From Musa acuminata AAA Group (Eukaryota > Streptophyta > Magnoliopsida > Zingiberales > Musaceae): a DNA stretch of 64,000 bases. A program made the position numbers and the translations under genes. The stretch lies in contig NC_088339.1 of assembly GCF_036884655.1 (NCBI RefSeq), forward strand, positions 29,048,501-29,112,500. Reading direction: 5' to 3'. Shown here one piece after another: positions 8,383 to 64,000 of the stretch (the first letter of the stretch is position 1; every line of letters begins with the position of its first letter). The notes beneath the pieces were generated by a model. It searched no databases, was not told the origin of the DNA, and saw only the letters and a list, made by a program, of their open reading frames with translations.

Positions 8383-8385
<3 letters not shown>

Positions 8386-8429
<44 letters not shown>

Positions 8430-8457
8430 GCGCCTTAGACCACTCGGCCAAACTGTC
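8386..8457 (-). pseudogene. tRNA-Leu pseudogene lacking the anticodon loop
   Basis: On the minus strand the acceptor stem (GACAGTT with AGCTGTC), D arm, variable arm and T arm (GTGGG TTCAAAT CCCAC) are all intact. The anticodon stem-loop is about seven bases shorter than in the duplicate at 59870-59948, removing the anticodon. It is 72 bases long against 79. It cannot decode leucine codons, although its internal A and B box promoter sequences remain. Confidence 0.85.
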
Positions 8458-9028
8458 TCTATTGACAATTTTTCTCTTAAAATTAAATATAATCACTCTA
8501 TTTACTATCCTAAATGCACGATATTATCCTCTTCTTTGTAGTTGCAACGGCAGGACGAAAAGATTACGGTCATTCATCCAAGGGCATTCTACCCAGACCA
8601 GGGCAAGAACCAGAGACATGCAACAGACCACTTGTGTGTAGCGGATAGATATGCTTTCCTTTCTTGTAACAGCAACTCTCTCCGGCCAAAACGTAGCGGG
8701 GAACAGAATGTGAAGTCTGAGAGGGAAATGATAACTCCGGCTTTCCATCTTCTACTCCCACTTTCTTGTTTCTTCTCCTCTAAAAAGAATTCTACTTTGG
8801 ATAGTGGATTCCTGCTCTCTACATCATTGTTCCAACTTGGATTCAAAGATTGCAATCATTTACTTCACCTATGTAACACGATGATTGACTGATGTTTTCC
8901 TCAGAAAGGACAAAAAAGATCATTGTCCATTGTGAGAAAGTATTATTCTGTAATGCAACGTTCCTAGTCAATGAGCATGACATCAAGTAGAACAGATACA
9001 TATTAAAATGTATATGTAAAGCGGAAGG

Positions 9029-9205
9029 ATGAAAGTAGCTAAAGGTTTCTTCGAGTTCCACACCATTCTTGATGGTGTTCTTGCTGGAACTGTGGAACAC
9101 AATCTATATTGGCTTCTCAGGAATCGACACAGTAATTCTATAGCATGGCTGAAGGACATGCAAGTCCAAGGCGAAGGGGAGGTTTACAGGTCACTCTGCT
9201 TTTAA
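9029..9205 (+). CDS. Unrecognised 58-residue ORF (copy 1)
   Basis: An ATG-initiated frame of 58 codons begins MKVAKGFFEF and ends EVYRSLCF. It looks like ordinary protein rather than random translation: balanced composition, with an aromatic stretch NLYWLL. The same frame is open in the duplicate at 60414-60590 with three amino-acid replacements (K5Q, G16R, S37T) and one silent change, which argues against strong constraint. No family is recognised. It could be a genuine small protein, an exon of a lost gene, or chance. Confidence 0.3.
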   Translation: MKVAKGFFEFHTILDGVLAGTVEHNLYWLLRNRHSNSIAWLKDMQVQGEGEVYRSLCF

Positions 9206-10627
9206 CCCTCCTCTCTTTCCAAAGAGTTGGCCCCTCACGGAAGCAAAGAATACTTTTGGTGGTAAAATCCCATGTTGACATCCAACTATTCATGGCTTGG
9301 AATTGGTGCAAACAGTTCTCGTCGGTGGCGGTCAAAGGATCCACAACTTTTGTATTCCTATTAGGGATGACCGGGGATAATATTGGTGGTAGAACCCACT
9401 ACAATGGACGGATATATTCTACTGCTTTAAAGAGAGGAGCATCTACCAGCTTCCTTCAATCACCTGCGAGGACTGTGTCTCTTAGCATGCAATGTTGGTA
9501 GCTACCAGTTTCATTTTAGTGTTTACCGTCCAATATCATTACTTCATAAACATTTTGATCATGTAAGATCGACAAAATTTGAGAGGCTCTGCACGCACTT
9601 TGTTCGAACGAATCAACATTTACTGTAAGAGCAAGAACAGATGCAGATTAGAGAACATGATTACTAGTTATAATACATACACTGTAATTGAAACTGAGGG
9701 TCAAACAGCGCCTCCAAAAGGCAGAGGTAAATTGTGTCGATGATAAGGTCTGGAATAATCAAGTGAACAAAAGAAACCACAAGGTTAATGATGAGGTAGA
9801 CATCTCTCGGCGATGTGCAGCAGATGTTCTTTATAATGCAGGAATATAATGCAGGACCTGCTGCTTTATCCTCCACATCTGACTGCATGTCAAAAGCAGA
9901 TATCCAGTGCTCTCGAGATCCAAGATGAACCACTTGCGCATGCAATTGGACTGCCTGCTTGGGTGATTAACAGATTAAAATCACGACAGTGGCGAGATGA
10001 CAGTCGACTACAAGAACAAAGTGTGCAAGCTCTATCATCAAGAGACGTGATTCCAGGTAAGGAAAGAATCTGACGAGCTGCTGCCATAGACACATTTGCA
10101 TGTACACAAGGTCTGCGATGCAGGACAGCACAGTGCAACATGGACATCCATAGAGGATTCTACTTCTCCGACATTAAGAATGTCTTATGAATTTAGCTGC
10201 ATCTTTTTGTCTGACATTTTTACTGTAGAGGATCTAATAGTCAAAGATATTATACATGATGTGGACATGGAATCCTGAACCCTTTAAACCTTATTCTTTT
10301 CCACCATTTCTTTTGACCGGGTATCTGTCAAAGACAAGAATCCGGTGGGACCATAATGAAAAGGTTGCATACGGTGCACAAAGAACTCTCCGAGTCAAAA
10401 CGCTTTACCCATGTCTGGAGCAATGGTGCCCTTCTCTTAAATCCGACATCGTATAAGGTTGATGATCCTAATTCCAGTTCAACTAATAGATCCACTTAGG
10501 GATTCGAACGATCAAGACTACACCACCTAAAATCTATGGAGATGGGAGATCTCCGGTTTAATTGCTGATGCACTCGTACCCACTAGTTTCTAGTGAAGGC
10601 TGTACCTGAAGGCCACTGCCAACCTTG

Positions 10628-10636
10628 TATATAAAT
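10628..10636 (+). promoter_or_regulatory. TATA box of exonuclease-like gene, copy 1
   Basis: TATATAAAT lies 76 bases upstream of the ATG at 10712, a usual plant spacing for a short 5' leader. The duplicate has one substitution here (AATATAAAT). Confidence 0.55.
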
Positions 10637-10711
10637 ACGGAACCAACACTCCGTCTCTTGGCCAACCTTGAGCCATTTCCCTCTGGCAGTTCAGAGCTAC
10701 GCAGATCAGCC

Positions 10712-12579
10712 ATGGACAATAGGCATGACTCTGAGACTGTTAGGTACACCACCAATCCTTCTTCACGTACACTCATCTTTTATGCATCATGCATGTGCAC
10801 GTTCCTGTTTCTTTTCCTAATGGTCATACTTTATATTGTGTTATTTGAAGTTCTTTCGTATATTTCTAATCTGGCTATTAAATGCGGTACGAGCAGAAAC
10901 AAATGCGCAGCATGTTTCAGGCAATACAACAAGGTGGAGCATCTGGTGGAACATATGAGGGTTTCATTTCACTCGGTGCATGAGCCAAAGTGTGGGGTAT
11001 GCCAAAAACACTGCAGGTTTTTTGAATCTCTCAGGGAGCATCTGATAGGTAAGCGATGTCTGAAGTTGAAAGCAGCTCTCATCGCTCGACATTTGTATTC
11101 TAAGGATCAGATGATATCTTTGTTGAAGGACCACTGCCGAAGATTGAATGTGCCAGGGTATTCAGACCTCGAGGATGTAATCTATGCCTCAACATCTTCG
11201 AAAGTCCAAATGCTCTTAGGACTCACCGTGCATCATGCCAACTCTCTCGCGATGCTTCGGTGAGTGACCTAAATGATAGAAATCATCTCAAAACAGTGCA
11301 TCATCTCCTTAAAGGAAGAAAGAAGAACTGTCATGCAGGGCTGTGTTTCATGTTCTCATGTTGTTTTTCTTTGTATGGTCTGAATTAAGTAGGAGTTGGA
11401 GATTTTATATGTGAGAATAAGATTCTTTCCAGAACTGTATAGGTGAGAATTTGATGTACTTAATGGATCATCTGTTGCTTCTCTCGAGTCTCCAAGTGCA
11501 TCTTAATCATAGTCCATAATTATAGTCGAGCCAGCATACCCATTATTATCTTCATTCTTCTTTCAGGGGCTTACCTCTCGGATGTCGAGGATGAGCTTGC
11601 AAGACACGTCGGGTTACGGCACGCGAAATCAAGGTTCCCAGGTAGTTGCTTTGGCTTGCAAGATGGTCGGAGGAGGAAGCGATGGATCACTAGACCTGTG
11701 TGCCAGGGTCTGCCTGATCGGCGAGGACGAGAACGTTATCTTCCAGACCTACATCAAGCCCCAAATACCGGTCACAAACTATAGGTGCCTTTGTATGCCT
11801 TCTTTATTTCCTGTACTTCTCTGAACAAACTCGGTGATCAACATGGAACTCCTTATCACACGAATAGGAGGAGCACCTAATACTTCAAATCGGTCCAGGT
11901 ATGAAACGACAGGGATAAGACCTGAATACTTGAGGGACGCAATGGCGCTGAAGCAAGCACAGAGGAGGATTCAGGACTTCCTTAGCAACGGAGAACCCAT
12001 CTGGAAGATACGCTCTCGGGGTGGAGAGGCAAGAATCCTCGTAGGGCACGGTCTGGATCACGACCTCGAGTGCCTTGGAGTTGAATACCCTGAATTCTTG
12101 ATCAGGTACCAGCTGTATCCAATCTGAGTTTCAAGCGATCATCTTTCTGAGCAAGCGATCATCTCTCTCTCCGAGCGCATGCAGGGACACAGCAATCTAC
12201 CCACCGCTGATGAGGACTAGCAAGCTCAGCAATTCGCTCAAGTATCTGACACAAGCCTACCTCGGGTGAGTGAACGAACACAAGTAAGGTTCATTTATCA
12301 TGCTTCAGCTAGCACGCACTTGTTCACGTATACATATAATTCATCCGCAGATATGACATTCAAACTGGAACGCAAGACCCGTACGAGGACTGTGTGGCTG
12401 CGATGAGGATTTATATCAGGATGCGATCACAGAATCATCCGCGCGACTACGCCTCAGGCTGCGGCGAGAGCCGCAACAATTACCCAGCGTGGAGGCAACG
12501 GGAGCTGGAGAAGATGACACCTGATGCGTTACTGGAGCTCTCGGCATCCGATTACTACTGCTGGTGCCTGGACTCTTAA
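10712..12579 (+). CDS. C2H2 zinc-finger / DEDDh exonuclease-domain protein (REX4-like family), copy 1, 7 exons
   Basis: My splice model has exons 10712-10743, 10897-11048, 11129-11259, 11567-11784, 11899-12105, 12185-12265 and 12351-12579, all with GT-AG introns and matching phase. It gives 349 residues. The N-terminus has three Cys/His clusters: C14-x2-C17 with H30; CGVCQKHC with H; and GCNLCLNIF...THRASC. From about residue 130 an RNase D/REX-type exonuclease fold follows: VALACKMVGGG, ETTGIRPEYLRDAM, LVGHGLDHDLECLG, then QDPYEDCVAAM. It ends SDYYCWCLDS. The Exo I motif normally has Asp-x-Glu, but Ala135 and Lys137 stand there, and the Exo III histidine is Gln. Plant relatives (Arabidopsis At3g27970-type, from memory) may share this loss, so the protein is probably a non-catalytic nucleic-acid binder. 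Confidence 0.85.
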
Positions 12580-13601
12580 GCAAGTCGTGAAAGATGGTGC
12601 ATGCATGTATCCTACGTCTGCAGGACTACGAGCAATCTTATCTAATCTGCTGTACTTAGAAAAGACTGAAGGGAGTAGATTATGTAAGAGTTTTATAGAT
12701 TGCTAGGAGTCGCAACTCATGCAACTCTGTAGCTTTAAAGGTGTGCAATGAAGTCATTAGTATGCTATTGACTGCTACAGATGATTTACTTTATAATAAG
12801 TGTGTAGTACATACATGAGTATGCTATTGACTGCTGCATGCATGCGCATCCCTTGTTTTCATATTTATTTGAACAAATCAAAATTTCCATTTTTTTAAAT
12901 ATAATTAATCGATTTAATCTTCATTGCATTGTGCAAATTCTATAGCTTAAATACTGTAGTGCTTTTAAAAGGATGCTATGATGTGTCTAAAGGTGCCATA
13001 CCTTTTTTCATAAAACGTATATTCTTAAATAACATTCGTTGTTTTCAAATGCTGTAAAATGATACTAAACAAAGAAGGCTATAAATTTTATTGGACCATT
13101 GGAAATTTAATGAAAATAAAAGATAATCAATCAAATCATTAGCTGGTTGATACATAGAACAACTTAAAAATAAAAGAGAGATTTATGTGAAAATATCGAG
13201 TTTCAAACTTCACTAATTACAGCACCGTAACCATCTTATCTCTGGTAATTAATCAATTCATGATAATTAGTGTCATTATTATCAAAGTCAATCTGCACGA
13301 TGGAGAGACCAATTAACCATAAACGTATCGGACGGAAAGTTTGAATTGAACGGTCGAGATTAGTTGTCTGTTTGACGAACTTTCCAATCATTTCGAGTAG
13401 CTGACTAAGCCATGTCACAGTAGCATGGTGAAATGGATTGAAGAATCCTTGTTTCTACAAGATTGTGATACGCCATGAGCCACGTCAACCATACGGCGTT
13501 AGCATGGTTGTCCCACCATGTCAATATGGCATTAGTGTAACAGTGACGGCTACCGCGCAACGGCAAAATAGCGGAGGATTAGAAGAGGGCCAAAAGTAGC
13601 A
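12580..13601. other. Intergenic, no gene seen
   Basis: This is A+T-rich sequence between the exonuclease-like gene and the NFD6-like gene. The phrase AGTATGCTATTGACTGCT occurs twice (near 12759 and 12816), a short direct repeat in the 3' region of the upstream gene. The last ~150 bases before 13602 become richer in G+C and probably hold the promoter of the next gene; no clear TATA box is seen. Confidence 0.6.
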
Positions 13602-19610: not shown

Positions 19611-20739
19611 ATGAGGAACTGTCACCGTGGTCGAGCAGATCTTAAGGTGGAGAGGAAGATGGCGGAAAAATATAGGAGACTGCACATGAAGACCCTGTAC
19701 TTGAAGCTTTCCTCCATCATTCCCGCGGAACACAGAACCACGGCAAAGGTAAGCATCTTGCTTCTTCCTGCGCTTCTATTTCTTTCTCGGATGTTTTATC
19801 TCCATCAGAACCCTACTGCCTGATGAATGGGTTTCTCTCTCTTTCTTCTTTCTCTTACATGATTTGATTGATCGCAGAATGCGTCATCGACATCATCCAC
19901 GTTGACATTCCTTCCGATCACAAAGTATTCTTTAACTAATAATTGATGGACAAAATAATTGCAGTAATCGTATATCCTGAGATAAAGCCCAAGACTTGTC
20001 TACTTTTCTTCCATCATCTGTGATACAAGAATTGCTATCGAGTGTATCGCATCCTGCAACTTCTAATCTTAAACCTATTATGTTACAGGATGCAATGACA
20101 AAGCAAGACAACTTGGATCAAGCCACATCTTACATCAAATATCTTCGTGCAAGGATCGAAAAGTTGAAGCAGAGAAGGCTCGTGCAGACCAGCGCGGTCA
20201 GAAATGAGATGGGAACGGGCTATCTATTGCCAATCATTGAAGTAAAATACCAGGATCTGAACCTGGAGATACTTCTGATAAGTGGTGTGAACAAGAGCTT
20301 CATGTTCCATGAGGTGATCAATGTTCTCGAGGAAGAAGGTGCCGAAGTCATCCATGCTAGCTTCTCAGTCGTCGGTGACAAGATCTACCACACAATACAT
20401 TCGCAGGTGATCACGATCCTTCTCTCTTTGCTCTTTACTAGTTTGGGCAGCTCGAGCTAAGGCAGATGATGATTTATGTCCAGGCAAGGGATTTTGTTTA
20501 TAGGATCAGGACACCTTACCTTACCTAGGTTAATGAAATCCTTCCCAAAAAAACATGGTTTTTTTGTGTTTGCAGCTACGACTCCAATCGATCAGGGTGT
20601 GTCGGTCTTCCTGTTAGCCTACAGCATTTAACCTACATGTGTGATGAGCTGTTATTACCTGTGTTTGCAGGCTGTCAGCACCAGAATTGGCTTGGAGGCT
20701 TCGAGGGTATCTGAGAGACTGAAGGAGCTGGTTAAGTAA
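19611..20739 (+). CDS. bHLH transcription factor (bHLH162-like subgroup), 3 exons
   Basis: Exons 19611-19748, 20089-20406 and 20671-20739, all in phase 0, give 174 residues. The basic/helix 1 region reads LKVERKMAEKYRRLHMKTL, the loop is at SSIIPAEH, and helix 2 is QDNLDQATSYIKYLRARIEK. A C-terminal ACT-like segment (YLLPIIEVKYQDLNLEILL) is followed by the last exon, AVSTRIGLEASRVSERLKEL. The basic region lacks the full His-Glu-Arg DNA-contact pattern, so DNA binding may be weak or non-E-box. The start is the ATG followed by RNCHRGRADLK, because upstream sequence in frame lacks an ATG. Exon 3 and the 3' flank are duplicated in inverse orientation at 29977-30045, beyond the viral insert. Confidence 0.85.
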
Positions 20740-23700
20740 TCATCTAGGAGACATGGTTTTCCAGATTCCTGAGGACATATGGACGTGTACCATGCACTTT
20801 TTTTAAGACTGCTATTGATATGGATCGGTTTCGTCGGAGGAGGAAGAAGAAGATGATCCCACCACCACGAACAGACGTACTGCTTTCCTCTTTCCTTTTT
20901 TTGAGTTGAGATTGATGCTTGGAGCTTGCACGATTGTTGTACCCTCTGTAGTCTGCAGACTATTGACTAATGGAAGCTTCTCTTGTTTCAGTGGCATTTT
21001 AGTTCTCTTAAACACGTTCTTAGCGCTCGTATGGGAATCTTCCTCGTACTCACCAAACATTTTCTTCGACCGTGTCGGCGATCCGACAACCCTTCAATAG
21101 AAAACTGGCGGCAGAATGAAACCCTTAAATAGAAAACTTTTAGTCATCAAATGCTCCGTGTTACGTCGTTTTACCATCACCGACGGTGAGCGGATTCCCC
21201 TGCATCTTCTTCGTCGCTACCCCGGGAATCGGGACATCAAATCGACGGCGCTTCCTCACGTGTGAGTAAAATACTGCCTCCTGGATTTGGATATAGTCAT
21301 CTTCTTCCAAATCTAGTTCTTCTATTGCTGCAGCTGTTGAGATATAGGGCAAAGTGTTAATAGTCGTTAAGTTTTTGTAAAACGTAACCGTGTTACCTTC
21401 AATCCTAACTCCTCCTTGCATTGCCCTTATAAAATTACATCCTATTATCATTTGAATATCATCCCCAAGCTTCATTGAGAACACATAGGTGTAAGGAATC
21501 CTGAAAGTGTTGTTCCCAATAGTCATTTTGCCTCCCCTTAATTTTTTGTTCGCTGTCGTTTTGGAGGTGATCCCACTGAAATGCACCACATAAGGGTTTT
21601 CTTCTATTGCAGCTTTTGGTACAGCCTTCTCGTCTATGCAACAAGTGGTAGCACCTGTATCTAGTATAGCATTAACTTCAAAAGGGGGAATATTCAGAAT
21701 TTCCATATGCACCTTTAAGTTGAAGAGCATATTCTTAGATCTTCTTGATCCTCCCGTTTCCTTTGTTTCCATAGAGAGGATTTTCTGAGTTTCTTCCTCC
21801 AAGAGAACAAGGGCCTCTTCATTTTCTTCTTCTTCTTCGCTTTCTTCAGTTTTTCTTTTTCCAAGCCTTTGTATTTTTTTCAGGAGATCGGCCTTCTCTA
21901 GCCTTAACCGATCTACTTCCAGTACTTCCCCTTCCAATTTGTCATATTTTTCCTTTAGCTCTACCACTTCGTTTTGTAAACGGAGGTTTTCCTGAGCTAT
22001 GGCTATAGATTGAATATGCATTTCTTCTAGCTCCTTGGCATTTTGTCGTTCAAATTCAATCGCCATTTCGAGCCTCCTTATTTCTACTTCGCAATGATTA
22101 ATAAAGTCTTGTTGTGTTTGAAGCAAGTTTCTAGGTTCATACCTTGGGGGTTCCTCCATCATGACGGGGGTCCTTTTGTCAAAGTAATATATGCTACACA
22201 TTCCACACGAAGTGATCTTGCATAAGGGACAATGTCTCCTATGCCTTCTTTGCGACGTTCTCTTGCAGATTTGCACTCTTCCAATCCTGGCGGTAGTTCT
22301 GTGTTGATTTCCCATATGTGTCTGCATTCAGCTTGTTCTTGGGAAACTTGTATTCTTGCTCTGTATCCTGTTTTAGGTCCTATCCACCAAGTTCTACTAT
22401 CTTCTATTAGAGCGAAAATTTTATGGGTGAAGGAGTGAATACCATGCTGTAGATCTTCTATGTCCTCTCCTTCAGAAATTGAATAAATTGCGTCGCTTTG
22501 GTTTTCTCCTTCTTGTACAGATAGTATTTCGTATTCATCTGGAATATCCAACTGTTCAAATATAGCAACTCTTTTGATATTCTTTCGGTCACTGGGGCAC
22601 TCTCTTGCAAAATGCCCTTCTTCTCCACAAAGGTAACACTTACATTTCTTATTTCTTATCAAGTGCTTTCTCTTCTCAATCCTTGCGTGGGATGAGTGAG
22701 GTTTACCTTTATAGGTCGTTGATCTTCTTACCCCATATTTTCTTTCAGGTTTGTTGTAGTATCCTGGGATAGAAATTTCACTGCAAAAGGACAGGTCCTT
22801 TAATGCTCTTCTAAATGCAGCATCTTTGCATTCAGCTTCTAAGTATTTATAGGAGAAGAGTATTCTCGGGATCACTCCTATAGTGTTTCCCCTATACTTT
22901 GCTTCAAATGCCTCTTTGATTCTCTTTCCTAGCTCCCCTGGCATTTTGGACCATAGCTTTTCAGATAATTCAGGGCCCAAGAACATCCTTCCTGTTTTGG
23001 ATGCCAACCTCATATAATCATTTAAGAATTGAATAATATATTTGAGGTTAGTATAGGATAACCTTTCAAGGTCTCTGTAGGCTTCTTCTTGCGCTGTTGT
23101 GGATCCCTGGAATGGATCTTTTAGTATGAAGATCGTCCTTAGTTGTGAGAGGATATTTTGTGTTCCTCCCGTTCCGTCTCCATTGGCTAGAAGTAATTGG
23201 TATTCTTCTGGATAAGCCATTCGCCATTGGATCCATGCCAATTTTTCAGCTTCCCCGAGCAAATTTTCAATAAACTCCATTTTTGCTAGAGGATCTGTAA
23301 ATCCTTGTGAAGATACCAAGTTCTTCGTTATTGATTCCCACCTCATAAATACTTCATCAAACATTCCCAATTGGGATGGGATTATAAATATTGCTCCCTG
23401 CTGCTGAAAGACTGAAGGGGGGTTCCAGGCTTCTGAAAAGTTCTTTGCCTTGAACCTTGGTTGTCTTGAATGCCCTTCATATTCTGGCCTTTGGCTTATG
23501 GATTCTATATTCACAGCCGGAGGGTAATTTACTGGTCCCATAGTTGAGTCCGCCGGTGGCCTGTAATTTGACACAGCAGATGATGAATATACCTGATGAG
23601 ATAATTTTGCTAACTGGGGGTATTCCATTACTAGTTCTTCTTCCAGTCCTGCTGCAATTAATTCCCTCTGAGGCTTTCGAGGGTACGGCATCTCTACTTT

Positions 23701-24684
23701 CTCTGAGATATGGGTATCTTGAAAATAGGAATTCAGGCCTTCGCGTAGTTCTTCTGCTTCATCTTCACTACTACTTGATAATTGAATATTGACAGCTATT
23801 GTGTGGCTTCGTATTTCTTCTTCATCACTGAATGTTTCATCATCCACAGTGTTATAGTGGATCCTGCTGGATGTCGATGCTGCTTTATAATTATCAAAAC
23901 TGATCGAAATCCTTCCGTCAATTAGGTTCCTACTCCTGAGCTCAGCAGGTTGCATGGGGATTGAGACTTGCATCGGTCTAATCATCCAGTCTCTCCCTCT
24001 GATTTCTGTTGTGGAATAACCTCTACCTGGTAGAGCCCTTATGCCATGGCTTGTTAGGTAATCCACCACCCCTGAGATTTCATAAGCAAAGGCGACATTC
24101 GGGGTATTTGAAAGCCGCCCTACCATTCCTCTGGTAATTAATAGATTTGCTTCTCCATTCTGCCATGTGTCATATCCACGGGTTAGTATAGAGAGTTGTA
24201 TATTGCGGTAAAAATCTCCTACCGTCATCATAGTATCTGGTACAACATAGACCAGTTGACTTCCTCTGGTCAAGTCTACTTCCATGGTAGCAATGATGGA
24301 CCTATCATCGGCCCATCTGTTGTCCCGGAACACTAATAGTGCTAGTGTCCCTTCTTCCTGCCTGTGGAGTGTCTGAATCCTTGTTTGTAGGATTCCAAGA
24401 TGAATATATCTCATCCCGCTCCTAATTAGTTGGTCAAAGCTTTGTTCTTGTATGAAGGCCCTGTCTTCTTGGTTATTGGTGACCAACATAGCTTCTTCCG
24501 ATCGATGCGTGTAAACCCTGTGGTGTGCATCGTCCCTCCTTGAGTGATACAGTATTTCAGCTGGTGCTATTGCAGCTCTTTCCCTCATGGATAATTGTAG
24601 CTGTGCCTGAGGGTCTATTTGTTGCTCCAGAACTTGTATGTTTGGGTTTGGGTTTCTGGAAATTAGTTGTCCCAGTCGTCTTCT
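20537..24684. repeat. Left arm of ~4.15 kb inverted repeat (host bHLH exon 3 + virus)
   Basis: The sequence is the reverse complement of 26031-30179: paired coordinates sum to 50716 over the host part and the protease part, and to 50715 past about 22275 because of one single-base difference. It contains, left to right, part of bHLH intron 2, exon 3, its 3' flank, and then viral polyprotein sequence on the minus strand. The left limit falls at the word AATCCTTCCC near 20537, inside bHLH intron 2. Confidence 0.95.
20740..21160 (+). other. bHLH 3' flank, left copy; host-virus junction zone
   Basis: Downstream of the bHLH stop this is ordinary plant 3' sequence, repeated in inverse at 29556-29976. 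A minus-strand 82-codon ORF (20812-21060) is present identically in both arms but is only the mirror of the 3' region. Recognisable viral protease sequence begins at about 21300 (minus strand). The bases between about 21100 and 21260 are richer in C+G than the virus, so the exact junction lies there but cannot be fixed by eye. Confidence 0.5.
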
Positions 24685-24786
24685 AGCGTTGAATATTCTC
24701 CTCTGGTTTCTCCTGTAGTTTCTGATCTGATCTTCTATAAGAGGAGTTGACGTGGATACCTCTTGGGTTCGCGTCCTGGAAGTCAT
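21161..24786 (-). pseudogene. Badnavirus ORF3 polyprotein, 5' half, left arm (frameshifted)
   Basis: From ATG 24786 the frame runs leftward through movement-protein and coat-protein regions and a CCHC knuckle (CYLCGEEGHFAREC, near 22595-22635). It then breaks: relative to the other arm one base is missing near 22275, so the 875-codon frame ends at 22159. The continuation, with a second Cys/His-rich cluster, a Glu-rich coiled-coil segment and the aspartic protease motif DTGATTC (about 21650), is open in another frame down to 21161. Reverse transcriptase is not present here; host DNA follows. The start ATG overlaps the ORF2-frame stop, as is typical for badnaviruses. The single-base break leaves this copy unable to give the whole polyprotein. 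Confidence 0.9.
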
Positions 24787-24932
24787 CCTTTTGCTTCCTG
24801 AAAGATCTTTATAGGATCCTTAAAAACCAGGATTTTTCCTTTCGTCTCTTTAGGCCTTTCTGAAGGACCCAGGTTGAGATTTGCCAATTTGGTAATAAGT
24901 TCGTCTGGTACTACTTGGGATTGTATTATTTT

Positions 24933-25169
24933 TTATTGTTGCAATTCCCGTATTGTTTGTAGTTCTGTCCGTATTCCTTTTATGTCTTCAGCAATTTGTA
25001 TCAGAAGTTGTATCTGAACGTTATGCTGCTTGATTACGGCTACCTGATGGCTGAGAGTTCCAGGGAAATCACTTGTTTTGAGAAAACCAAGTGATGGAGG
25101 TTCAATGGATTCAGTAGCTTTGAGGGCCTCTTTGTAGGATTCGGTGCCCCTAGAGGATATATGGCTCAT
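24933..25169 (-). pseudogene. Badnavirus ORF2, truncated by an in-frame stop
   Basis: The ORF starts at 25169, its ATG overlapping the ORF1 stop (ATGA), and is open for 78 codons to a TAA at 24933-24935. After that stop the same frame stays open up to a TGA overlapping the ORF3 ATG, which is where badnavirus ORF2 normally ends. The early stop is therefore a lesion, not the natural end. The product in the family is a small virion-associated nucleic-acid-binding protein with coiled-coil character; the visible part is rich in Gln, Glu and Ile. Confidence 0.8.
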
Positions 25170-25597
25170 CCAAAGATCTGTTTCTCTATTTTGGATAATA
25201 GAATTTCAATCCTTTGGAGTTTTTGATCTAGGTCTTGTGATAATCGTAGGGTCTTCTCTTCAATAAGTTTGGGTTGCTTAGATATTTCTAACACTAATTT
25301 CTGTACCTCGGATTGGGTGAGGGGCTTATTTTCAATGAATAAAGAGGATAGCGTTTTTACTGAAGATTCGAGATTTCTAATCCTCTTTTCAAGGTTATGG
25401 TTTTCTTCAAGCAAGAGTTTGAAGTTTCTCAGGTTTACTCGGCTTGATAGGCAGGTTCTGTCATAAATAACAGAGATGTTATGAGCTAGTTCTTTCTTAG
25501 TGGGTTTTGTGGTCTCTGCTAGATTCAGATAGTCAAGATGAGAGGTATGCGAATCTGTATACCACTTTTGAATAGCTTCTTCCCAAAGTTTAGACAT
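25166..25597 (-). CDS. Badnavirus ORF1 protein (143 residues, intact)
   Basis: The ATG at 25597 follows the long leader, and the ORF is 143 codons long, normal for ORF1 of the genus. It starts MSKLWEEAIQKWY and has a coiled-coil-like central part (LEENHNLEKRIRNLESS). Its stop overlaps the ORF2 start by the ATGA arrangement used for leaky-scanning translation in badnaviruses. The function of ORF1 in the family is poorly known; virion association has been reported. It lies in the single-copy spacer between the two inverted arms. Confidence 0.85.
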   Translation of the reverse strand: MSKLWEEAIQKWYTDSHTSHLDYLNLAETTKPTKKELAHNISVIYDRTCLSSRVNLRNFKLLLEENHNLEKRIRNLESSVKTLSSLFIENKPLTQSEVQKLVLEISKQPKLIEEKTLRLSQDLDQKLQRIEILLSKIEKQIFG

Positions 25598-25802
25598 ATA
25601 CTAAATATGCATTGTTTTGGATCTACTTACGTTCTTAACCCTGAGGGCTTGCGTCAAAGGTCTTACTGAGGTTCCCTGACCAGATTGCCTTCCTCGGGCT
25701 CCTCACAGGTTTAGATTGTAAGAGATATCATTATCAAGCATATTTTAGCATAAATGTCATGATAGTTTGGTTGGAAACTATATCAAAATAGCATACAAAC
25801 TA

Positions 25803-25814
25803 GCTCTGATACCA
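25803..25814 (-). promoter_or_regulatory. Viral minus-strand primer binding site (tRNA-Met)
   Basis: On the minus strand TGGTATCAGAGC is complementary to the 3' end region of plant initiator tRNA-Met and is the conserved primer site of plant pararetroviruses. It lies in the leader upstream of ORF1, as expected. Only this copy is present: the right-hand leader copy ends at 32411, before reaching the site. Confidence 0.9.
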
Positions 25815-25858
25815 AAAGAAACGGAAGACGACCAAAAAGAAACGGAAGACGACCAATG
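25815..25858 (-). repeat. Short tandem duplication beside the primer site
   Basis: The word GAAACGGAAGACGACCA occurs twice in tandem with a period of about 21 bases, directly beside the primer binding site. The right viral end at 32411 stops at the GGTCGTC of this unit. Confidence 0.75.
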
Positions 25859-25866
25859 ATTTGTAA

Positions 25867-25984
25867 GAAATGATAAGCACAAAGAACTATAGAAAGCTTA
25901 AAATGCTTACAAAGGATTGGACTTAGAAATGATAAGCACAAAGAACTATAGAAAGCTTAAAATGCTTACAAAGGATTGGACTTA
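25867..25984 (-). repeat. 59-base tandem duplication in viral leader, left block
   Basis: A 59-base unit beginning GAAATGATAAGCACAAAG is present twice head to tail. The same duplication is in the right leader copy (about 32274-32391), so it was already in the viral genome that integrated, or both leaders derive from one molecule. Confidence 0.9.
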
Positions 25985-26126
25985 GACTTCTTCTCAAGTA
26001 AGACTCTGGTTTTTCGACCGATGTCTTGCAAGAAGACGACTGGGACAACTAATTTTCAGAAACCCAAACCCAAACATACAAGTTCTGGAGCAACAAATAG
26101 ACCCTCAGGCACAGCTACAATTATCC

Positions 26127-29100
26127 ATGAGGGAAAGAGCTGCAATAGCACCAGCTGAAATACTGTATCACTCAAGGAGGGACGATGCACACCACATGGT
26201 TTACACGCATCGATCGGAAGAAGCTATGTTGGTCACCAATAACCAAGAAGACAGGGCCGTCATACAAGAACAAAGCTTTGACGAACTAATTAGGAGCGGG
26301 ATGAGATATATTCATCTTGGAATCCTACAAACAAAGATTCAGACACTCCACAGGCAGGAAGAAGGGACACTAGCACTATTAGTGTTCCGGGACAACAGAT
26401 GGGCCGATGATAGGTCCATCATTGCTACCATAGAAGTAGACTTGACCAGAGGAAGTCAACTGGTCTATGTTGTACCAGATACTATGATGACGGTAGGAGA
26501 TTTTTACCGCAATATACAACTCTCTATACTAACCCGTGGATATGACACATGGCAGAATGGAGAAGCAAATCTATTAATTACCAGAGGAATGGTAGGGCGG
26601 CTTTCAAATACCCCGAATGTCGCCTTTGCTTATGAAATCTCAGGGGTGGTGGATTACCTAACAAGCCATGGCATAAGGGCTCTACCAGGTAGAGGTTATT
26701 CCACAGCAGAAATCAGAGGGAGAGACTGGATGATTAGACCGACGCAAGTCTCAATCCCCATGCAACCTGCTGAGCTCAGGAGTAGGAACCTAATTGACGG
26801 AAGGATTTCGATCAGTTTTGATAATTATAAAGCAGCATCGACATCCAGCAGGATCCACTATAACACTGTGGATGATGAAACATTCAGTGATGAAGAAGAA
26901 ATACGAAGCCACACAATAGCTGTCAATATTCAATTATCAAGTAGTAGTGAAGATGAAGCAGAAGAACTACGCGAAGGCCTGAATTCCTATTTTCAAGATA
27001 CCCATATCTCAGAGAAAGTAGAGATGTCGTATCCTCGAAAGCCTCAGAGGGAATTAATTGCAGCAGGACTGGAAGAAGAACTAGTAATGGAATACCCCCA
27101 GTTAGCAAAATTATCTCATCAGGTATATTCATCATCTACTGTGTCAAATTACAGGCCACCGGCGGACTCAACCATGGGACCAGTAAATTACCCTCCGGCT
27201 GTGAATATAGAATCTATAAGCCAAAGGCCAGAATATGAAGGGCATTCAAGACAACCAAGGTTCAAGGCAAAGAACTTTTCAGAAGCCTGGAACCCCCCTT
27301 CAGCCTTTCAGCAGCAGGGAGCAATATTTATAATCCCATCCCAATTGGGAATGTTTGATGAAGTATTTATGAGGTGGGAATCAATAACGAAGAACTTGGT
27401 ATCTTCACAAGGATTTACAGATCCTCTAGCAAAAATGGAGTTTATTGAAAATTTGCTCGGGGAAGCTGAAAAATTGGCATGGATCCAATGGCGAATGGCT
27501 TATCCAGAAGAATACCAATTACTTCTAGCCAATGGAGACGGAACGGGAGGAACACAAAATATCCTCTCACAACTAAGGACGATCTTCATACTAAAAGATC
27601 CATTCCAGGGATCCACAACAGCGCAAGAAGAAGCCTACAGAGACCTTGAAAGGTTATCCTGTACTAACCTCAAATATATTATTCAATTCTTAAATGATTA
27701 TATGAGGTTGGCATCCAAAACAGGAAGGATGTTCTTGGGCCCTGAATTATCTGAAAAGCTATGGTCCAAAATGCCAGGGGAGCTAGGAAAGAGAATCAAA
27801 GAGGCATTTGAAGCAAAGTATAGGGGAAACACTATAGGAGTGATCCCGAGAATACTCTTCTCCTATAAATACTTAGAAGCTGAATGCAAAGATGCTGCAT
27901 TTAGAAGAGCATTAAAGGACCTGTCCTTTTGCAGTGAAATTCCTATCCCAGGATACTACAACAAACCTGAAAGAAAATATGGGGTAAGAAGATCAACGAC
28001 CTATAAAGGTAAACCTCACTCATCCCACGCAAGGATTGAGAAGAGAAAGCACTTGATAAGAAATAAGAAATGTAAGTGTTACCTTTGTGGAGAAGAAGGG
28101 CATTTTGCAAGAGAGTGCCCCAGTGACCGAAAGAATATCAAAAGAGTTGCTATATTTGAACAGTTGGATATTCCAGATGAATACGAAATACTATCTGTAC
28201 AAGAAGGAGAAAACCAAAGCGACGCAATTTATTCAATTTCTGAAGGAGAGGACATAGAAGATCTACAGCATGGTATTCACTCCTTCACCCATAAAATTTT
28301 CGCTCTAATAGAAGATAGTAGAACTTGGTGGATAGGACCTAAAACAGGATACAGAGCAAGAATACAAGTTTCCCAAGAACAAGCTGAATGCAGACACATA
28401 TGGGAAATCAACACAGAACTACCGCCAGGATTGGAAGAGTGCAAATGCTGCAAGAGAACGTCGCAAAGAAGGCATAGGAGACATTGTCCCTTATGCAAGA
28501 TCACTTCGTGTGGAATGTGTAGCATATATTACTTTGACAAAAGGACCCCCGTCATGATGGAGGAACCCCCAAGGTATGAACCTAGAAACTTGCTTCAAAC
28601 ACAACAAGACTTTATTAATCATTGCGAAGCAGAAATAAGGAGGCTTGAAATGGCGATTGAATTTGAACGACAAAAGGCCAAGGAGCTAGAAGAAATGCAT
28701 ATTCAATCTATAGCCATAGCTCAGGAAAACCTCCGTTTACAAAACGAAGTGGTAGAGCTAAAGGAAAAATATGACAAATTGGAAGGGGAAGTACTGGAAG
28801 TAGATCGGTTAAGGCTAGAGAAGGCCGATCTCCTGAAAGAAATACAAAGGCTTGGAAAAAGAAAAACTGAAGAAAGCGAAGAAGAAGAAGAAAATGAAGA
28901 GGCCCTTGTTCTCTTGGAGGAAGAAACTCAGAAAATCCTCTCTATGGAAACAAAGGAAACGGGAGGATCAAGAAGATCTAAGAATATGCTCTTCAACTTA
29001 AAGGTGCATATGGAAATTCTGAATATTCCCCCTTTTGAAGTTAATGCTATACTAGATACAGGTGCTACCACTTGTTGCATAGACGAGAAGGCTGTACCAA

Positions 29101-29555
29101 AAGCTGCAATAGAAGAAAACCCTTATGTGGTGCATTTCAGTGGGATCACCTCCAAAACGACAGCGAACAAAAAATTAAGGGGAGGCAAAATGACTATTGG
29201 GAACAACACTTTCAGGATTCCTTACACCTATGTGTTCTCAATGAAGCTTGGGGATGATATTCAAATGATAATAGGATGTAATTTTATAAGGGCAATGCAA
29301 GGAGGAGTTAGGATTGAAGGTAACACGGTTACGTTTTACAAAAACTTAACGACTATTAACACTTTGCCCTATATCTCAACAGCTGCAGCAATAGAAGAAC
29401 TAGATTTGGAAGAAGATGACTATATCCAAATCCAGGAGGCAGTATTTTACTCACACGTGAGGAAGCGCCGTCGATTTGATGTCCCGATTCCCGGGGTAGC
29501 GACGAAGAAGATGCAGGGGAATCCGCTCACCGTCGGTGATGGTAAAACGACGTAA
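26127..29555 (+). pseudogene. Badnavirus ORF3 polyprotein, internal part, right arm (no natural start, no RT)
   Basis: This is an open frame of 1142 codons. The arm begins inside ORF3, so the natural start codon and the first residues are absent; 26127 is an internal methionine. Order: movement-protein region, coat region, CCHC knuckle (CYLCGEEGHFAREC), a second Cys/His cluster (CKCCKRT then CPLCKITSCGMC), an acidic coiled-coil stretch, and aspartic protease (AILDTGATTC). It ends at a stop in or near host-derived sequence. Unlike the left arm it has no frameshift in the second Cys-rich cluster. It lacks RT and RNase H, which lie 600 bases further on behind inverted host DNA. Family knowledge gives the polyprotein roles; the truncation is seen directly. 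Confidence 0.9.
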
Positions 29556-29976
29556 CACGGAGCATTTGATGACTAAAAGTTTTCTATTTAAGGGTTTCAT
29601 TCTGCCGCCAGTTTTCTATTGAAGGGTTGTCGGATCGCCGACACGGTCGAAGAAAATGTTTGGTGAGTACGAGGAAGATTCCCATACGAGCGCTAAGAAC
29701 GTGTTTAAGAGAACTAAAATGCCACTGAAACAAGAGAAGCTTCCATTAGTCAATAGTCTGCAGACTACAGAGGGTACAACAATCGTGCAAGCTCCAAGCA
29801 TCAATCTCAACTCAAAAAAAGGAAAGAGGAAAGCAGTACGTCTGTTCGTGGTGGTGGGATCATCTTCTTCTTCCTCCTCCGACGAAACCGATCCATATCA
29901 ATAGCAGTCTTAAAAAAAGTGCATGGTACACGTCCATATGTCCTCAGGAATCTGGAAAACCATGTCTCCTAGATGA

Positions 29977-30045
29977 TTACTTAACCAGCTCCTTCAGTCT
30001 CTCAGATACCCTCGAAGCCTCCAAGCCAATTCTGGTGCTGACAGC
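29977..30045 (-). pseudogene. Inverted duplicate of bHLH exon 3
   Basis: Its 69 bases are the reverse complement of bHLH exon 3 (20671-20739), including the stop and the adjoining acceptor site (GTTTGCAG). It is orphaned: no exon 1 or 2 lies upstream on the minus strand. It was carried along with the inverted repeat. Confidence 0.95.
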
Positions 30046-30159
30046 CTGCAAACACAGGTAATAACAGCTCATCACACATGTAGGTTAAATGCTGTAGGCT
30101 AACAGGAAGACCGACACACCCTGATCGATTGGAGTCGTAGCTGCAAACACAAAAAAACC

Positions 30160-31961
30160 ATGTTTTTTTGGGAAGGATTGGAGATTAAGAATCAAGACTT
30201 CGTGGTTGAGGACAAACCCCTTAGACATTTAACACCACAAGCAAAGGAAGCCTTCTCAAGGCATGTAAAAGCACTACTGGAAATAGGGGTTATCAGACCA
30301 AGCAAAAGTAAGCACCGTACTACTGCTATAATTGTTAATTCAGGAACCACGGTGGACCCCATAACAGGAGCTGAAAGAAAGGGGAAGGAAAGGATGGTTT
30401 TTAATTACAAAAGGCTCAACGACATCACCGAAAAGGATCAATACAGCCTTCCTGGTATCAATACCATCCTTAAAAAGGTCAGCAATAGCAAAATCTACTC
30501 AAAGTTTGACCTAAAATCGGGCTTTCACCAAGTTGCCATGCACCCTGATTCCATTGAATGGACTGCATTTTGGGTTCCTGAAGGACTATATGAATGGCTT
30601 GCAATGCCATTTGGTCTCAAAAATGCCCCTGCTATATTCCAAAGAAAAATGGATAGCTGCTTCAAAGGTACTGAACAATTCATTGCAGTATACATTGATG
30701 ATATTCTTGTCTTCTCAGAAAACGAAAAGGAGCATGGGCAACACCTCACTAAAATGTTAGAAATATGCCAAGAAAACGGCCTTGTCTTAAGCCCAACGAA
30801 AATGAAAATTGCAGTAAAGGAGATTGAATTTCTTGGAGCAGTCTTGGGGAACTCCAAAATCAAGTTACAGCCCCATATTATTAAAAGAATCACAGAATAT
30901 CAGGAAGAAGACCTTACTACCAAGAAAGGCCTCAGATCATGGTTGAGAATTCTAAACTATGCAAGAAGCTATATACCCAACCTGGGCAGGCTTCTAGGCC
31001 CATTATATTCAAAAACAAGCCCCACTGGCGAGAAAAGGCTGAATGAGCAAGATTGGAAATTAATCAAAAAGATTAAGAGCCTGGTACAAAATCTCCCTGA
31101 TCTAGAGGTACCTCCTGAAGACTGTTTTATAATACTTGAAACAGACGGATGCATGGAAGGATGGGGAGGTATTTGCAAATGGAAAAAACAAAAATATGAC
31201 CCCAGAAATACTGAGAAGGTATGTGCCTACGCCAGCGGAAAGTACAACCCAATCAAGTCCACTATAGACGCTGAGATGCATGCAGTCATGAAAACCCTGG
31301 AGGCATTAAAGATTTACTTTCTTGATAAAAAGGAAATTATGATCAGAACTGACTATCAAGCAATAATAAGCTTTTTCAACAAGTCCACTCAGAACAAACC
31401 ATCTAGAGTCCGATGGATGGCCTTTGTAGACTACATCACTGGAAGCGGCGTTGAAATCAAATTTGAGCACATCGAAGGAGATAGTAACATTCTAGCCGAC
31501 TCTTTATCTCGACTAATAAATATTTTGGTTGCAGGATGGCCGAACGAATCATTACTCCTTCTCCTAGAAGCCACTCAGGAGGTTCAAGCTAAACCAAACC
31601 TCAGGGCCACTGCACACCTGAATCAACTAATAAACCAGGCGACCTCCTCCTGCAATACCAACAAGAAATGGATAAGCTCAGAGCCAAGACACGTGAAGGA
31701 CTCACATTTGATGAAATTGGACTATCTGAAAGAAGACTTGGAGCAATTCAAAAGGAAGCCTCCCTACAAGCATGTGAAGCATTACAGCAATTCATGGACA
31801 TCCACCTAATCAAGACTAAAGAATATCAAAGAAGGAGCGGTGGAAAAGACAACTGGTACAAGGACTGGTTACCAGTTGTCCTCCAGCAGCAACAACAACT
31901 GGAGAAGGCTCTATCTCTGGCAAAAGACGTCTCACAAAGGACAACTAGCTTTAGCCTTTAG
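30160..31961 (+). pseudogene. Badnavirus ORF3 3' part: reverse transcriptase and RNase H, chimeric start, frameshifted end
   Basis: Viral sequence starts at about 30180, in the linker before RT. The open frame begins at an ATG (30160) lying in the inverted host intron, so the first ~7 codons are host-derived. RT shows VIRPSKSKHRTT, FDLKSGFHQV, MPFGLKNAPAIFQ and the catalytic YIDDILVF, all intact. RNase H follows (ETDGCMEGWGG, DAEMHAV, RTDYQAI). The frame ends at 31809, but from about 31593 the better protein-like reading moves to another frame, open to 31961, so a frame change between about 31590 and 31620 breaks the C-terminus. Protease and coat parts are not joined to it. Confidence 0.85.
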
Positions 31962-32411
31962 AGGTCCTGCAACAGCTGGAGCATCTACTTTTCTTAGCCG
32001 CCAAGTAAAAACAAGTTGCGTGGGGTAGAGCACCTGTTTTTCTTAGCTGTCAAACGAGTTGAGCCCCGGGGAGCCGCTCGTAGTGTCATCAATAATTGTA
32101 CTAAGGAATATCCTTTCCTTCAGTACGAAGTCTAGAAATATATTAGAAGAAGAGATAAGAATGCGATGGGGCCCAATGAGTACCCGGTTCTATCCTCTTC
32201 CTCTATATATTCTCTAGCTTAGTCTCTTGCAAGACATCGGTCGAAAAACCAGAGTCTTACTTGAGAAGAAGTCTAAGTCCAATCCTTTGTAAGCATTTTA
32301 AGCTTTCTATAGTTCTTTGTGCTTATCATTTCTAAGTCCAATCCTTTGTAAGCATTTTAAGCTTTCTATAGTTATTTGTGCTTATCATTTCTTACAAATC
32401 ATTGGTCGTCT
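31962..32411 (+). promoter_or_regulatory. Viral intergenic region, promoter and leader start
   Basis: A TATA box (TATATAT, 32204-32210) follows a GC-mixed upstream region with a TGCGATGGGGCC stretch. The presumptive transcript start is about 25-30 bases downstream. The leader continues with the 59-base tandem duplication to 32411, where viral similarity stops before the primer site. The left block begins its leader at the word TGCAAGAC (32228 here), close to the predicted transcript start. Confidence 0.75.
32274..32391 (+). repeat. 59-base tandem duplication in viral leader, right block
   Basis: Two head-to-tail units with core AATCCTTTGTAAGCATTTTA and period 59 match the left block at 25867-25984, with one visible substitution (AGTTCTTT against AGTTATTT). 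Confidence 0.9.
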
Positions 32412-33714
32412 AGTTCCCGGTGGGCGACTGGCGGCGGCGATCCTGGCCCAGGCCCGGTTGTCTCGGAGGCCCAGTTGACAAGGTGGACGTTGAGCCCACA
32501 TACATTTCCCAGCCCGAACTGCTTCGAGAAGAACTCGTCAACGGACTCTAATAGTTTCGTGCATAAATAGCTTATCTATCATAATATTATAAACATAATT
32601 GCAAATCAGTAATATATTTTCACAGTATATTCACGTTCGATGGATCGGAGGAAAATTAATGTCGCTAACTAAAAATGGCACAATATTTGAAATTAGGCAT
32701 TTAAAATTTTAATAAATATATAGTGATATATTAATCTGTTCACAAAATAGAAGAATTTATTTAAAATAAATAAATAAATATGTTCCCAAACATAACAGTC
32801 TAAAAATACAAATGTGATTCACGCTGAAGTTGATCGACTATTAACGGTTGACTACAGAGGTAAGTGTGTTAGGATCAATCTTTGCTGCTGCATTTTTTAT
32901 GGAATTAAAAGAACTTGTATATATTTATTCGGTCTCCTTTGGAATGACACAAAGTGTGCCGCTTATTAAGGGGAAAAGAAGGATCGACACTTGCCCTCTT
33001 TGTTCTCGCGTTCGGAATGGCCCAATATTGCGGAATGAAGATGTCAAAAGTTACAGCCAGAGGAATGTGGTCTCGGAATTATCCTCTACAAGTGTCCCCT
33101 TCTGATTTGATATCTTTCTCGACTTAAATCTTCCCCCAATCTTTGTAGAAATCTTTGCATCATTAATGGTCGATCAAGGTGCCTGAATGTGGAATCACAC
33201 ATGGTAGATATCTTTAGATTACTTATAATCTTCACCAGGGCCGTCATTATAGCAGGCATGTACGAATCTTCCATTTCTTGTGGGGATGATGGCATATCAT
33301 GAACTCACTAAAATTAGTTTGGCTCGCAAAAGAGAAAAAGAATAAAGGCTTGTTTGATTCATGAAGAACAGTGCAGTCAGCGCTGCTGTTCCATCTTAGA
33401 TATAGTTTTGTTTTAGCTTATCATTTTATTAGTCTCGAGTGCAAACACAATGACAAAGGCCACCAGCATCACATCTGCAGTCTCTTTCAGATGACTGCCA
33501 CAAGCATGCTAAGATAAGGCAGGAAGGTCAATGTCTCAGATAAAACGAGGGCGGAAGGTGGATGTAAGTCTGCAGTCAAAGGAGAGCCTAGAAGGAAATC
33601 TGAAAATACGGCAGAAGAAGAAGAAGCAGAAGAGGAGGGATTTAGATGTGTCTTGTGATCATGGACTCTTGATGATAGATAGAAAGGTGGGAAATATATA
33701 AAACAGGCTTTGAT

Positions 33715-33754
<40 letters not shown>

Positions 33755-34069
33755 CTGCAGGCAACCCATGTGCTCACATGGAAACATAGAGAGAGAATGT
33801 ATGCGTGTGTGAGAGAGAGAGAGAAGAGGGGAAGAGAGAGAGAGTGAGAGACAAACACAGAGTAGAATAGCAGCGACAAGAGGGGAGAAGTGGAAAGAAG
33901 AAAGTCTTTATAGAAAGAAGAGGAAGTAGCCTATTGCGTGAGGGGAGGAGAAGATGCGGTAGAGGAAGAGGCGAGAGTAGAAGAGAAGAGAAGCTTAAAA
34001 AGATCCCATCTTTTTGGCTTTGCGTGGTAGCCTTAGAGGCGGCAAAAGAGTGAGTGAGGGGAGAGAGAG
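32412..34069. other. Virus right flank and kinase promoter region, no gene seen
   Basis: Host sequence resumes at 32412 (C+G-rich for ~130 bases, then A+T-rich). No coding frame with a recognisable domain is present. From 33715 to 33850 there are several (GA)n runs, frequent in plant 5' regions, and the purine-rich strand continues up to the kinase start. The minus-strand ORFs here are translations of those repeats. Confidence 0.55.
33715..33850. repeat. (GA)n microsatellite cluster
   Basis: A run of GA dinucleotides at about 33718-33747 and further shorter runs to 33850 lie about 250 bases upstream of the kinase ATG. This may be 5' untranslated or promoter sequence. Confidence 0.85.
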
Positions 34070-59866: not shown

Positions 59867-59869
<3 letters not shown>

Positions 59870-59907
<38 letters not shown>

Positions 59908-59948
59908 AAGCCTAAATCTGGCACCTTAGACCACTCGACCAAACTGTC
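59870..59948 (-). tRNA. tRNA-Leu (UAG anticodon)
   Basis: On the minus strand there are 79 bases: acceptor GACAGTT paired with AGCTGTC, anticodon stem CCAGA/TTTGG around loop TTTAGGC (anticodon TAG), long variable arm as in class II tRNAs, and T arm GTGGG TTCAAAT CCCAC. The A and B box promoters are inside. The D stem is weakened (GTC with GGT, two G-U pairs), whereas copy 1 has the strong GCC/GGC stem but no anticodon. It is likely transcribable, but folding quality is less than perfect. CCA is not encoded, as normal for a nuclear gene. Confidence 0.65.
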
Positions 59949-60413
59949 TTTATTGATGAATTTTCTCTTAATATTAAATATAATGACTCTATTTGGTATC
60001 CTAAATGAACTAGCGGATAGATATGCTTTCCTTTCTTGCTTACCTCTGTTTTGTAACAGCAGCTCTCTCCGGCCAAAATGTAGCGGGGAACAGAATATGA
60101 AGTCTGAGAGGGAAATGATAACTCCGGCTTTCCATCTTCTACTCCCACTTTCTTGTTTCTTCTCCTCTAAAAAGAATTTTCTTTTGGATAGTGGATTCCT
60201 GCTCTCTACATCATTGTTCCAACTTGGATTCAAAGATTGCAATCATTTACTTCACCTTTGTAACACGATGATTGACTGATGTTTTCCTCAGAAAGGACAA
60301 AAAAGATCATTGTCCATTGTGAGAGTATTATTCTGTAATGCAACGTTCCTAGTCAATGAGCATGATATCAAGTAGAACAGATACATATTAAAATGTATAT
60401 GTAAAGCGGAAGG

Positions 60414-60590
60414 ATGAAAGTAGCTCAAGGTTTCTTCGAGTTCCACACCATTCTTGATCGTGTTCTTGCTGGAACTGTGGAACACAATCTATATTGGCTT
60501 CTCAGGAATCGACACAGTAATACTATAGCATGGCTGAAGGACATGCAAGTCCAAGGTGAAGGGGAGGTTTACAGGTCACTCTGCTTTTAA
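60414..60590 (+). CDS. Unrecognised 58-residue ORF (copy 2)
   Basis: This is the same frame as 9029-9205, starting MKVAQGFFEF. It remains open with no indels despite three replacements. No domain or family is recognised. Coding status is unproven. Confidence 0.3.
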   Translation: MKVAQGFFEFHTILDRVLAGTVEHNLYWLLRNRHSNTIAWLKDMQVQGEGEVYRSLCF

Positions 60591-62014: not shown

Positions 62015-62021
62015 TATAAAT
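62015..62021 (+). promoter_or_regulatory. TATA box of exonuclease-like gene, copy 2
   Basis: TATAAAT lies 76-82 bases upstream of ATG 62097. Compared with copy 1 (TATATAAAT) a T-to-A change shortens the TATA run to AATATAAAT. Confidence 0.5.
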
Positions 62022-62096
62022 ACGGAACCAACACTCCGTCTCTTGGCCAACCTTGAGCCATTTCCCTCTGGCAGTTCAGAGCTACGCAGATCAGCC

Positions 62097-63962: not shown

Positions 63963-64000
63963 GCAAGTCGTGAAAGATGGCGCATGCATGTAGCCTACGT

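Follow-up and report, generated by a model that had tools for sequence, protein, structure and literature searches.

A palindrome of viral and host DNA lies partly within a bHLH gene in the Musa acuminata DNA analysed here, a stretch of 64,000 nucleotides which is referred to as the window. Both arms contain the tail of the host gene joined to badnaviral DNA, they enclose a viral loop, and a third viral piece directly abuts the right arm. The features are as follows, arm 1 being the left arm and arm 2 the right arm:

19611-20739, plus strand: bHLH gene (bHLH36/162-like), with exons 19611-19748, 20089-20406 and 20671-20739; 174 aa
20537-24687, no strand assigned: left arm, host DNA at 20537 to about 21262, then virus on the minus strand
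20537-21262, plus strand: host part of arm 1, with the end of intron 2, the last exon, the stop codon ending at 20739 and about 520 bp of 3' flank
20537-21876, no strand assigned: outer 1,340 bp of the arm, free of differences, mirrored at 28840-30179
21263-24786, minus strand: viral copy A, with the ORF3 N-terminus, coat, zinc knuckle and protease; the ORF3 start, at 24786, is in the loop
24688-26027, minus strand: loop, with the leader, ORF1 (25166-25597), a frame in the ORF2 position (24933-25169) and the ORF3 start
26028-30179, no strand assigned: right arm, virus on the plus strand to about 29453, then inverted host DNA at about 29454-30179
26127-29453, plus strand: viral copy B, an open frame with coat, zinc knuckle and protease
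29454-30179, minus strand: antisense host copy, with the copy of exon 3 at 29977-30045
30180-32411, plus strand: viral segment C, with reverse transcriptase, RNase H, 3' region, a TATA motif at 32204 and the first ~190 nt of the leader
32222-32411, plus strand: leader repeat, an inverted copy of 25847-26037 (98.95% identical)

The spliced frame of the bHLH gene is open, with GT/AG borders at both introns, and the encoded protein is 98% identical over 100% to P0121 from Musa acuminata and 93% identical to Mb02t15280 from M. balbisiana, whose tag suggests that the locus may lie on chromosome 2. Arm 1 begins inside intron 2 and includes the last exon (20671-20739). The junction between host and virus follows at about 21262/21263, ~0.5 kb past the stop codon, a position placed within several bases by the loss of similarity to the badnaviral protein P0039. 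The plus-strand orientation of the gene and the presence of its last exon in both arms, which had been proposed in a first-pass annotation, are borne out by the spliced frame and by the antisense copy of exon 3 in arm 2.

Self-BLAST of the window returned 20537-24687 against 30179-26028 as an inverted match with 99.47% identity over 4,152 aligned columns (21 mismatches and 1 gap, E = 0). Each arm is made of ~726 bp of host DNA (end of intron 2, last exon and 3' flank of the bHLH gene) and 3.4 kb of virus. This match is far beyond chance, and the palindrome is confirmed as real in the assembled sequence. The arms annotated earlier, 20537-24684 and 26031-30179, agree with the self-comparison within a few bases. 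Similarly, the loop, expected to span ~1.35 kb with leader, ORF1 and ORF2, measures 1,340 bp (24688-26027) and holds a leader, an ORF1 of the DUF1319 type and a 78-aa frame in the position of ORF2.

Elsewhere in the window, a direct repeat of ~3.97 kb (8652-12617 and 60037-64000; 97.6% identical, 51 kb apart) runs off the window end and probably represents two copies of a repeat element. tRNA-like calls are found shortly before each copy (8385-8457, and 59869-59948 as tRNA-Leu). Positions 4237-7434 are densely filled with repeats, some of them in tandem, that have diverged to mostly 75-85% likeness, and two open frames at 2182-3828, whose reverse transcriptase matches fall below the Pfam cut-off, probably belong to a degraded retroelement. 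An open frame of 881 aa at 48436-51081, in which a PWWP domain was recognized (E 8e-18), is probably a host gene, and the plus strand is purine-rich at 33500-33999 (GC skew 0.58, AT skew 0.45).

The arms had been annotated as holding the movement, coat and protease region of the virus. Coat domain, zinc knuckle and protease were recognized by Pfam, while the movement region is assigned from its position only, no movement domain having been matched in the arms by Pfam. The first ~33 codons of ORF3 are located in the loop. A single-base difference relative to arm 2 splits the frame of copy A, and the open frame of copy B runs on into host DNA and stops at 29555. In the loop, ORF1 matches DUF1319 (Pfam, E 1e-53), the 78-aa frame gave no Pfam match up to E 0.01, and the leader carries at 25803-25814, on the minus strand, a 12-base primer-site motif which we take to be of the tRNA-Met type. 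The leader of copy A starts at a site matching 32225, ~21 bases after the start of the TATA motif at 32204, and this start may be close to where pregenomic RNA would begin. By eye, a unit of ~21 bp is present twice in tandem at 25813-25857, beside the primer-site motif, and segment C ends inside sequence matching the first of these two units.

The viral pieces show the hallmarks of the genus Badnavirus, with a DUF1319 ORF1, a primer-site motif in the leader and a polyprotein containing coat, zinc knuckle, protease, reverse transcriptase and RNase H. The coat piece (231 aa) is 98% identical to P0241 from M. acuminata subsp. malaccensis and 94% identical to P0242, an unnamed ENA protein. Among the named viruses compared, it shares 72.7% identity with Aglaonema bacilliform virus, 72.6% with Taro bacilliform CH virus, 47.1% with banana streak UM virus (BSUMV) and 46.2% with banana streak UI virus (BSUIV). 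For the reverse transcriptase piece, identity amounts to 77.8% with fig badnavirus 1 and to 61.9-63.1% with BSUMV and BSUIV, again among the named viruses compared. Over 466 aa, segment C shares 93.8% identity with an unnamed ENA protein. In a tree of 26 reverse transcriptase pieces, which contained neither clade 1 banana streak viruses nor named clade 2 sequences and in which BSUMV and BSUIV stood for clade 3, the window sequence fell among the badnaviruses, where two ENA proteins were its only strongly supported companions; BSUMV and BSUIV formed a separate long branch apart from it. A scan of IMG/VR, from which records near the window's genome may be left out, gave 17 pattern matches with the coat piece, 0 of which were confirmed. 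The virus is an endogenous badnavirus of banana (BEV), probably of clade 2. Clade 2 sequences in Musa were concluded to be endogenous only, without known counterparts infecting Musa, by Chabannes et al. (PMC7814968). In DH-Pahang, 118 BEV loci have been reported, and three of the eight types in Table 1 of that survey have loci on chromosome 2 (Rao et al., PMC10707546).

The differences between the arms are unevenly distributed. In the arm alignment, from which nine further gap columns beyond the inner edge were dropped, all 22 of them (21 substitutions and 1 indel) are located between 21877 and the inner edge, i.e., in the inner 2.8 kb, and the outer 1,340 bp, which covers all the host DNA and about 614 bp of virus, has 0 differences. 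If the differences were placed uniformly, the probability of an empty outer stretch would be 1.9e-4, the stretch having been picked out after the fact, and that of so long a run anywhere would be 0.004. After one inner-edge site was dropped, 20 substitutions could be scored in the coding frame. They comprise 16 nonsynonymous and 4 synonymous changes, about 14 of 20 being expected to be nonsynonymous without selection from the frame's own rates (0.67 for transitions, 0.85 for transversions). Using P0241 as reference, or P0242 where P0241 ends, 15 of the 16 nonsynonymous changes were polarized, eight to arm 1 and seven to arm 2. Because these numbers reveal no visible selection and divide between the arms, the viral differences look neutral, and both arms appear to have decayed as pseudogenes in the plant after integration. 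An origin of the differences in two variant viral genomes is disfavoured, since 16 of the 20 scored substitutions are nonsynonymous.

The polarized changes occur in blocks: most of those assigned to arm 1 are found outward, and most of those assigned to arm 2 inward. This arrangement may point to more than a single exchange event, or P0241 may be a recombinant. Eleven of the 15 polarized changes are C:G to T:A (contexts: 1 CG, 5 CHG and 5 CHH), which fits methylated DNA, though the changes are few. The CpG observed/expected ratio is 0.40-0.52 in all viral parts vs. 0.69-0.91 in host stretches; low viral CpG may be inherited from the virus and is no proof of methylation. With substitution rates of 4.5e-9 to 1.3e-8 per site per year, rough dating gives 0.29-0.83 My for the inner part, 0.19-0.56 My for the whole arm and at most about 0.09-0.25 My for the outer part.

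A segment of the virus is missing where arm 2 meets segment C. In the arm, viral sequence stops in the linker that connects protease with reverse transcriptase; it is taken up again in segment C, at LEIKN. The protease piece matched 41 of the 120 listed proteins, and P0039, the closest relative spanning both sides among the proteins listed, has 43 residues (about 129 nt) between the matching ends. Other relatives that span protease and reverse transcriptase also have unmatched residues at this linker, in varying number. Since 43 residues of P0039 fall between the end of the arm and segment C, copy B and segment C can be read as one former viral copy, in which 726 bp of inverted host DNA look to have taken the place of ~129 nt of virus. 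Short matches, seen by eye, occur at the arm edges, AGA at the inner edge and AA at the outer edge, the latter assuming an intact viral codon there. The uneven divergence of the arms and the loss of ~129 nt of virus at the meeting point of host insert and reverse transcriptase are newly recognized here; segment C, too, is not mentioned in the first-pass annotation.

On balance, we lean towards a rearranged BEV locus beside the bHLH gene, in which head-to-head viral copies were later reshaped by one-sided repair and which now constitutes a latent, mostly quiet hairpin source. In the proposed mechanism, copy A on the minus strand would have stood head to head with a copy made of B and C on the plus strand. 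After a break in copy B between protease and reverse transcriptase, the protease end of B would have invaded copy A and used it as repair template. Synthesis would then have proceeded through the protease of A and across its junction with host DNA, reaching 726 bp into the bHLH gene, before the new end was joined to the reverse transcriptase side at a 2-bp match, with about 129 nt of virus being lost. A viral inverted repeat would thereby have been lengthened into a virus-host palindrome. Repair copying from A predicts identical outer parts of the arms, as seen.

The same structure might also have arisen by one-step inverted duplication of the host-virus junction, through fold-back or template switching, with the outer 1,340 bp subsequently homogenized by gene conversion. 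This scenario, which we regard as rather unlikely, would account for the 2-3 bp matches at both edges and for arms that otherwise form a single continuous match, and conversion between arms formed in one step would likewise yield an identical outer part. However, it leaves unexplained why segment C starts only ~43 codons after the viral end of the arm, and it requires that a distinct conversion tract extended as far as the outer edge. An assembly artefact, in which two haplotypes or copies were joined in inverse orientation, appears quite improbable. The arm divergence of 0.5% does fall inside the allelic range, and endogenous badnavirus loci are numerous in M. acuminata, as illustrated by the count in DH-Pahang (PMC10707546). 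Nevertheless, the 1.34 kb loop is unrepeated in the window apart from a 191-bp leader stretch, the flanks of the arms differ from each other, short sequence matches are present at the inner and outer edges, and arm 2 meets the reverse transcriptase near the corresponding viral position. A simple hairpin-read artefact, in particular, is disfavoured by the 22 differences between the arms together with the non-repeated loop and the differing flanks.

Under the favoured reading of one-sided repair and a quiet locus, the palindrome retains the potential to form a hairpin RNA. That a transcript across both arms would yield a near-perfect dsRNA of ~4.15 kb, as suggested by the first-pass annotation, follows directly from the structure of the arms, the predicted stem of 4.15 kb containing 22 flaws. 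Dicer-like enzymes would process any such RNA into siRNAs against endogenous family copies and the bHLH tail. As bHLH exon 3 and the 3' flank are part of the predicted hairpin, the bHLH mRNA would itself be a target, a consequence not noted in the first-pass annotation. The loop, segment C and the rest of the window on either side contain none of the 21-mers of arm 1.

A consensus-only search without chance control placed four plus-strand AATAAA motifs (22100, 22482, 23269 and 25338) ahead of arm 2, in the interval from the left virus junction to the loop end, a few such motifs being expected in 4.8 kb of AT-rich DNA. They count weakly against a hairpin produced by read-through from the bHLH gene. 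Seven variant polyadenylation-type motifs were found besides, and the bHLH 3' flank contains one variant only (21115). The TATA motif at 32204, the only one preceding a viral leader, is directed to the right and not towards the arms. A viral promoter driving the hairpin was rejected for this motif only, since it faces outward, and ten other TATA-type motifs on both strands at 20401-33000 were not taken as promoters. As for a leftward gene facing the arms, a scan of five of the six minus-strand frames of at least 100 aa at 33-39 kb gave no Pfam match for any of the five, a search which spliced genes would escape. ENA contigs were rejected as evidence of expression: P0135, the ENA protein of the bHLH gene, runs into an unspliced intron, so its contig looks genomic and the viral ENA contigs are unusable as RNA evidence. 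Our best guess is that the palindrome would be mostly methylated and quiet, with at most mainly 24-nt siRNAs; for strong production of 21/22-nt siRNAs, transcription running on from the bHLH gene or another promoter would be required.

Three other views of the activity of the locus have to be weighed. An inert fossil, producing no RNA and no siRNA and having no effect on the bHLH gene, shares its structural part with the best explanation and is a possible alternative that we hold to be less probable. Neutral decay in both arms, the split frame of arm 1 and the missing viral segment all speak for it, while transcripts of fold-back inverted repeats form a described class of plant siRNA sources (PMC6256188). 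Conversely, an active natural hairpin, in which read-through from the bHLH gene or another transcript would give abundant 21/22-nt siRNAs defending against a badnavirus, seems improbable, even though the geometry of the arms and the orientation of the bHLH gene suit it. It has precedents in the rearranged pararetroviruses of tomato with 22-nt siRNAs and the inverted repeats of soybean (PMC10377300), including a soybean CMV inverted repeat with siRNAs from its repeated part only (PMC6256188). The AATAAA motifs before arm 2 argue weakly against such activity, as does the outward direction of the leader-associated TATA motif. Antiviral use today, as envisaged in the first-pass annotation, does not agree with a virus which fits the endogenous-only clade 2, whose counterparts infecting Musa are not known according to PMC7814968. 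In addition, the coat piece is 46-47% identical to those of BSUMV and BSUIV, clade 1 banana streak viruses being outside this comparison; from this protein identity, matching of siRNAs to banana streak viruses is improbable, and defence against today's banana streak viruses is unlikely. If RNA is made, silencing of related endogenous copies, and perhaps of the bHLH gene, would be likelier than antiviral defence. Finally, the repair-made fusion of a bHLH tail with a viral inverted repeat might constitute a newborn self-targeting regulatory locus, silencing both endogenous viruses and the bHLH gene, a bold proposal to which we give little credence.

If siRNAs confined to the arms exist, the locus would be an example, in a monocot, of a rearranged pararetrovirus that confers heritable RNA-based silencing and in which one hairpin reaches a host gene as well, and the contrast between stem, loop and segment C offers an internal control within a single locus. 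Even if the locus is silent, the uneven divergence of its arms is a readable record of an endogenous virus growing into a palindrome, maybe by one-sided repair. With its host-gene tail and informative history, the locus merits small-RNA mapping.

Among known systems, the clade 2 BEVs of Musa are alike in being badnaviral, endogenous and found in Musa, with a relative in M. acuminata 98% identical over the coat piece. As far as the excerpted texts go, the BEV surveys report PCR products, Southern blots and locus counts (PMC7814968; PMC10707546), and the words "inverted" and "small RNA" are absent from the main text of the latter. Among the titles and abstract openings listed by full-text literature searches, none described a locus of this kind in Musa. 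The endogenous banana streak viruses (eBSV) of Musa balbisiana resemble the present locus in their rearranged, inverted and duplicated viral pieces; they are described as belonging to clade 1 and the B genome and as able to yield infectious virus (PMC7814968; PMC10377300). While an infectious eBSV holds all viral genes and makes a whole genome possible, here ~43 codons between protease and reverse transcriptase are absent. The banana palindrome thus differs from eBSV in that part of ORF3 is missing, the frame in arm 1 is split and the arms carry host DNA.

Closer parallels are provided by silencing loci of other plants. In soybean, an inverted repeat of a 3.4 kb sequence from CMV RNA1 gives siRNAs from the repeated part only; as described, it derives from an RNA virus and has viral arms and a spacer of plant origin (PMC6256188). 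In maize, a read-through hairpin of ~4 kb was proposed for Mu killer. Silencing by Mu killer was tied to short antisense RNAs, and it was in plants failing to silence that read-through transcripts were seen (PMC3440606). Mu killer is likewise a partial inverted duplication beside a gene, derived from a transposon and not from a virus (PMC3440606). In tomato, transcriptionally competent siRNA areas, which are rearranged endogenous pararetroviruses with inverted repeats, produce 22-nt siRNAs and cause target cleavage (Valli et al. 2023, as summarized in PMC10377300). The banana locus is TSA-like in structure, being a long near-perfect inverted repeat of pararetroviral DNA. Judging by the same summary, the host exon in its arms is an extra feature compared with the tomato areas. 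Hairpin-type loci are of a kind already known in tomato and soybean and proposed for maize Mu killer.
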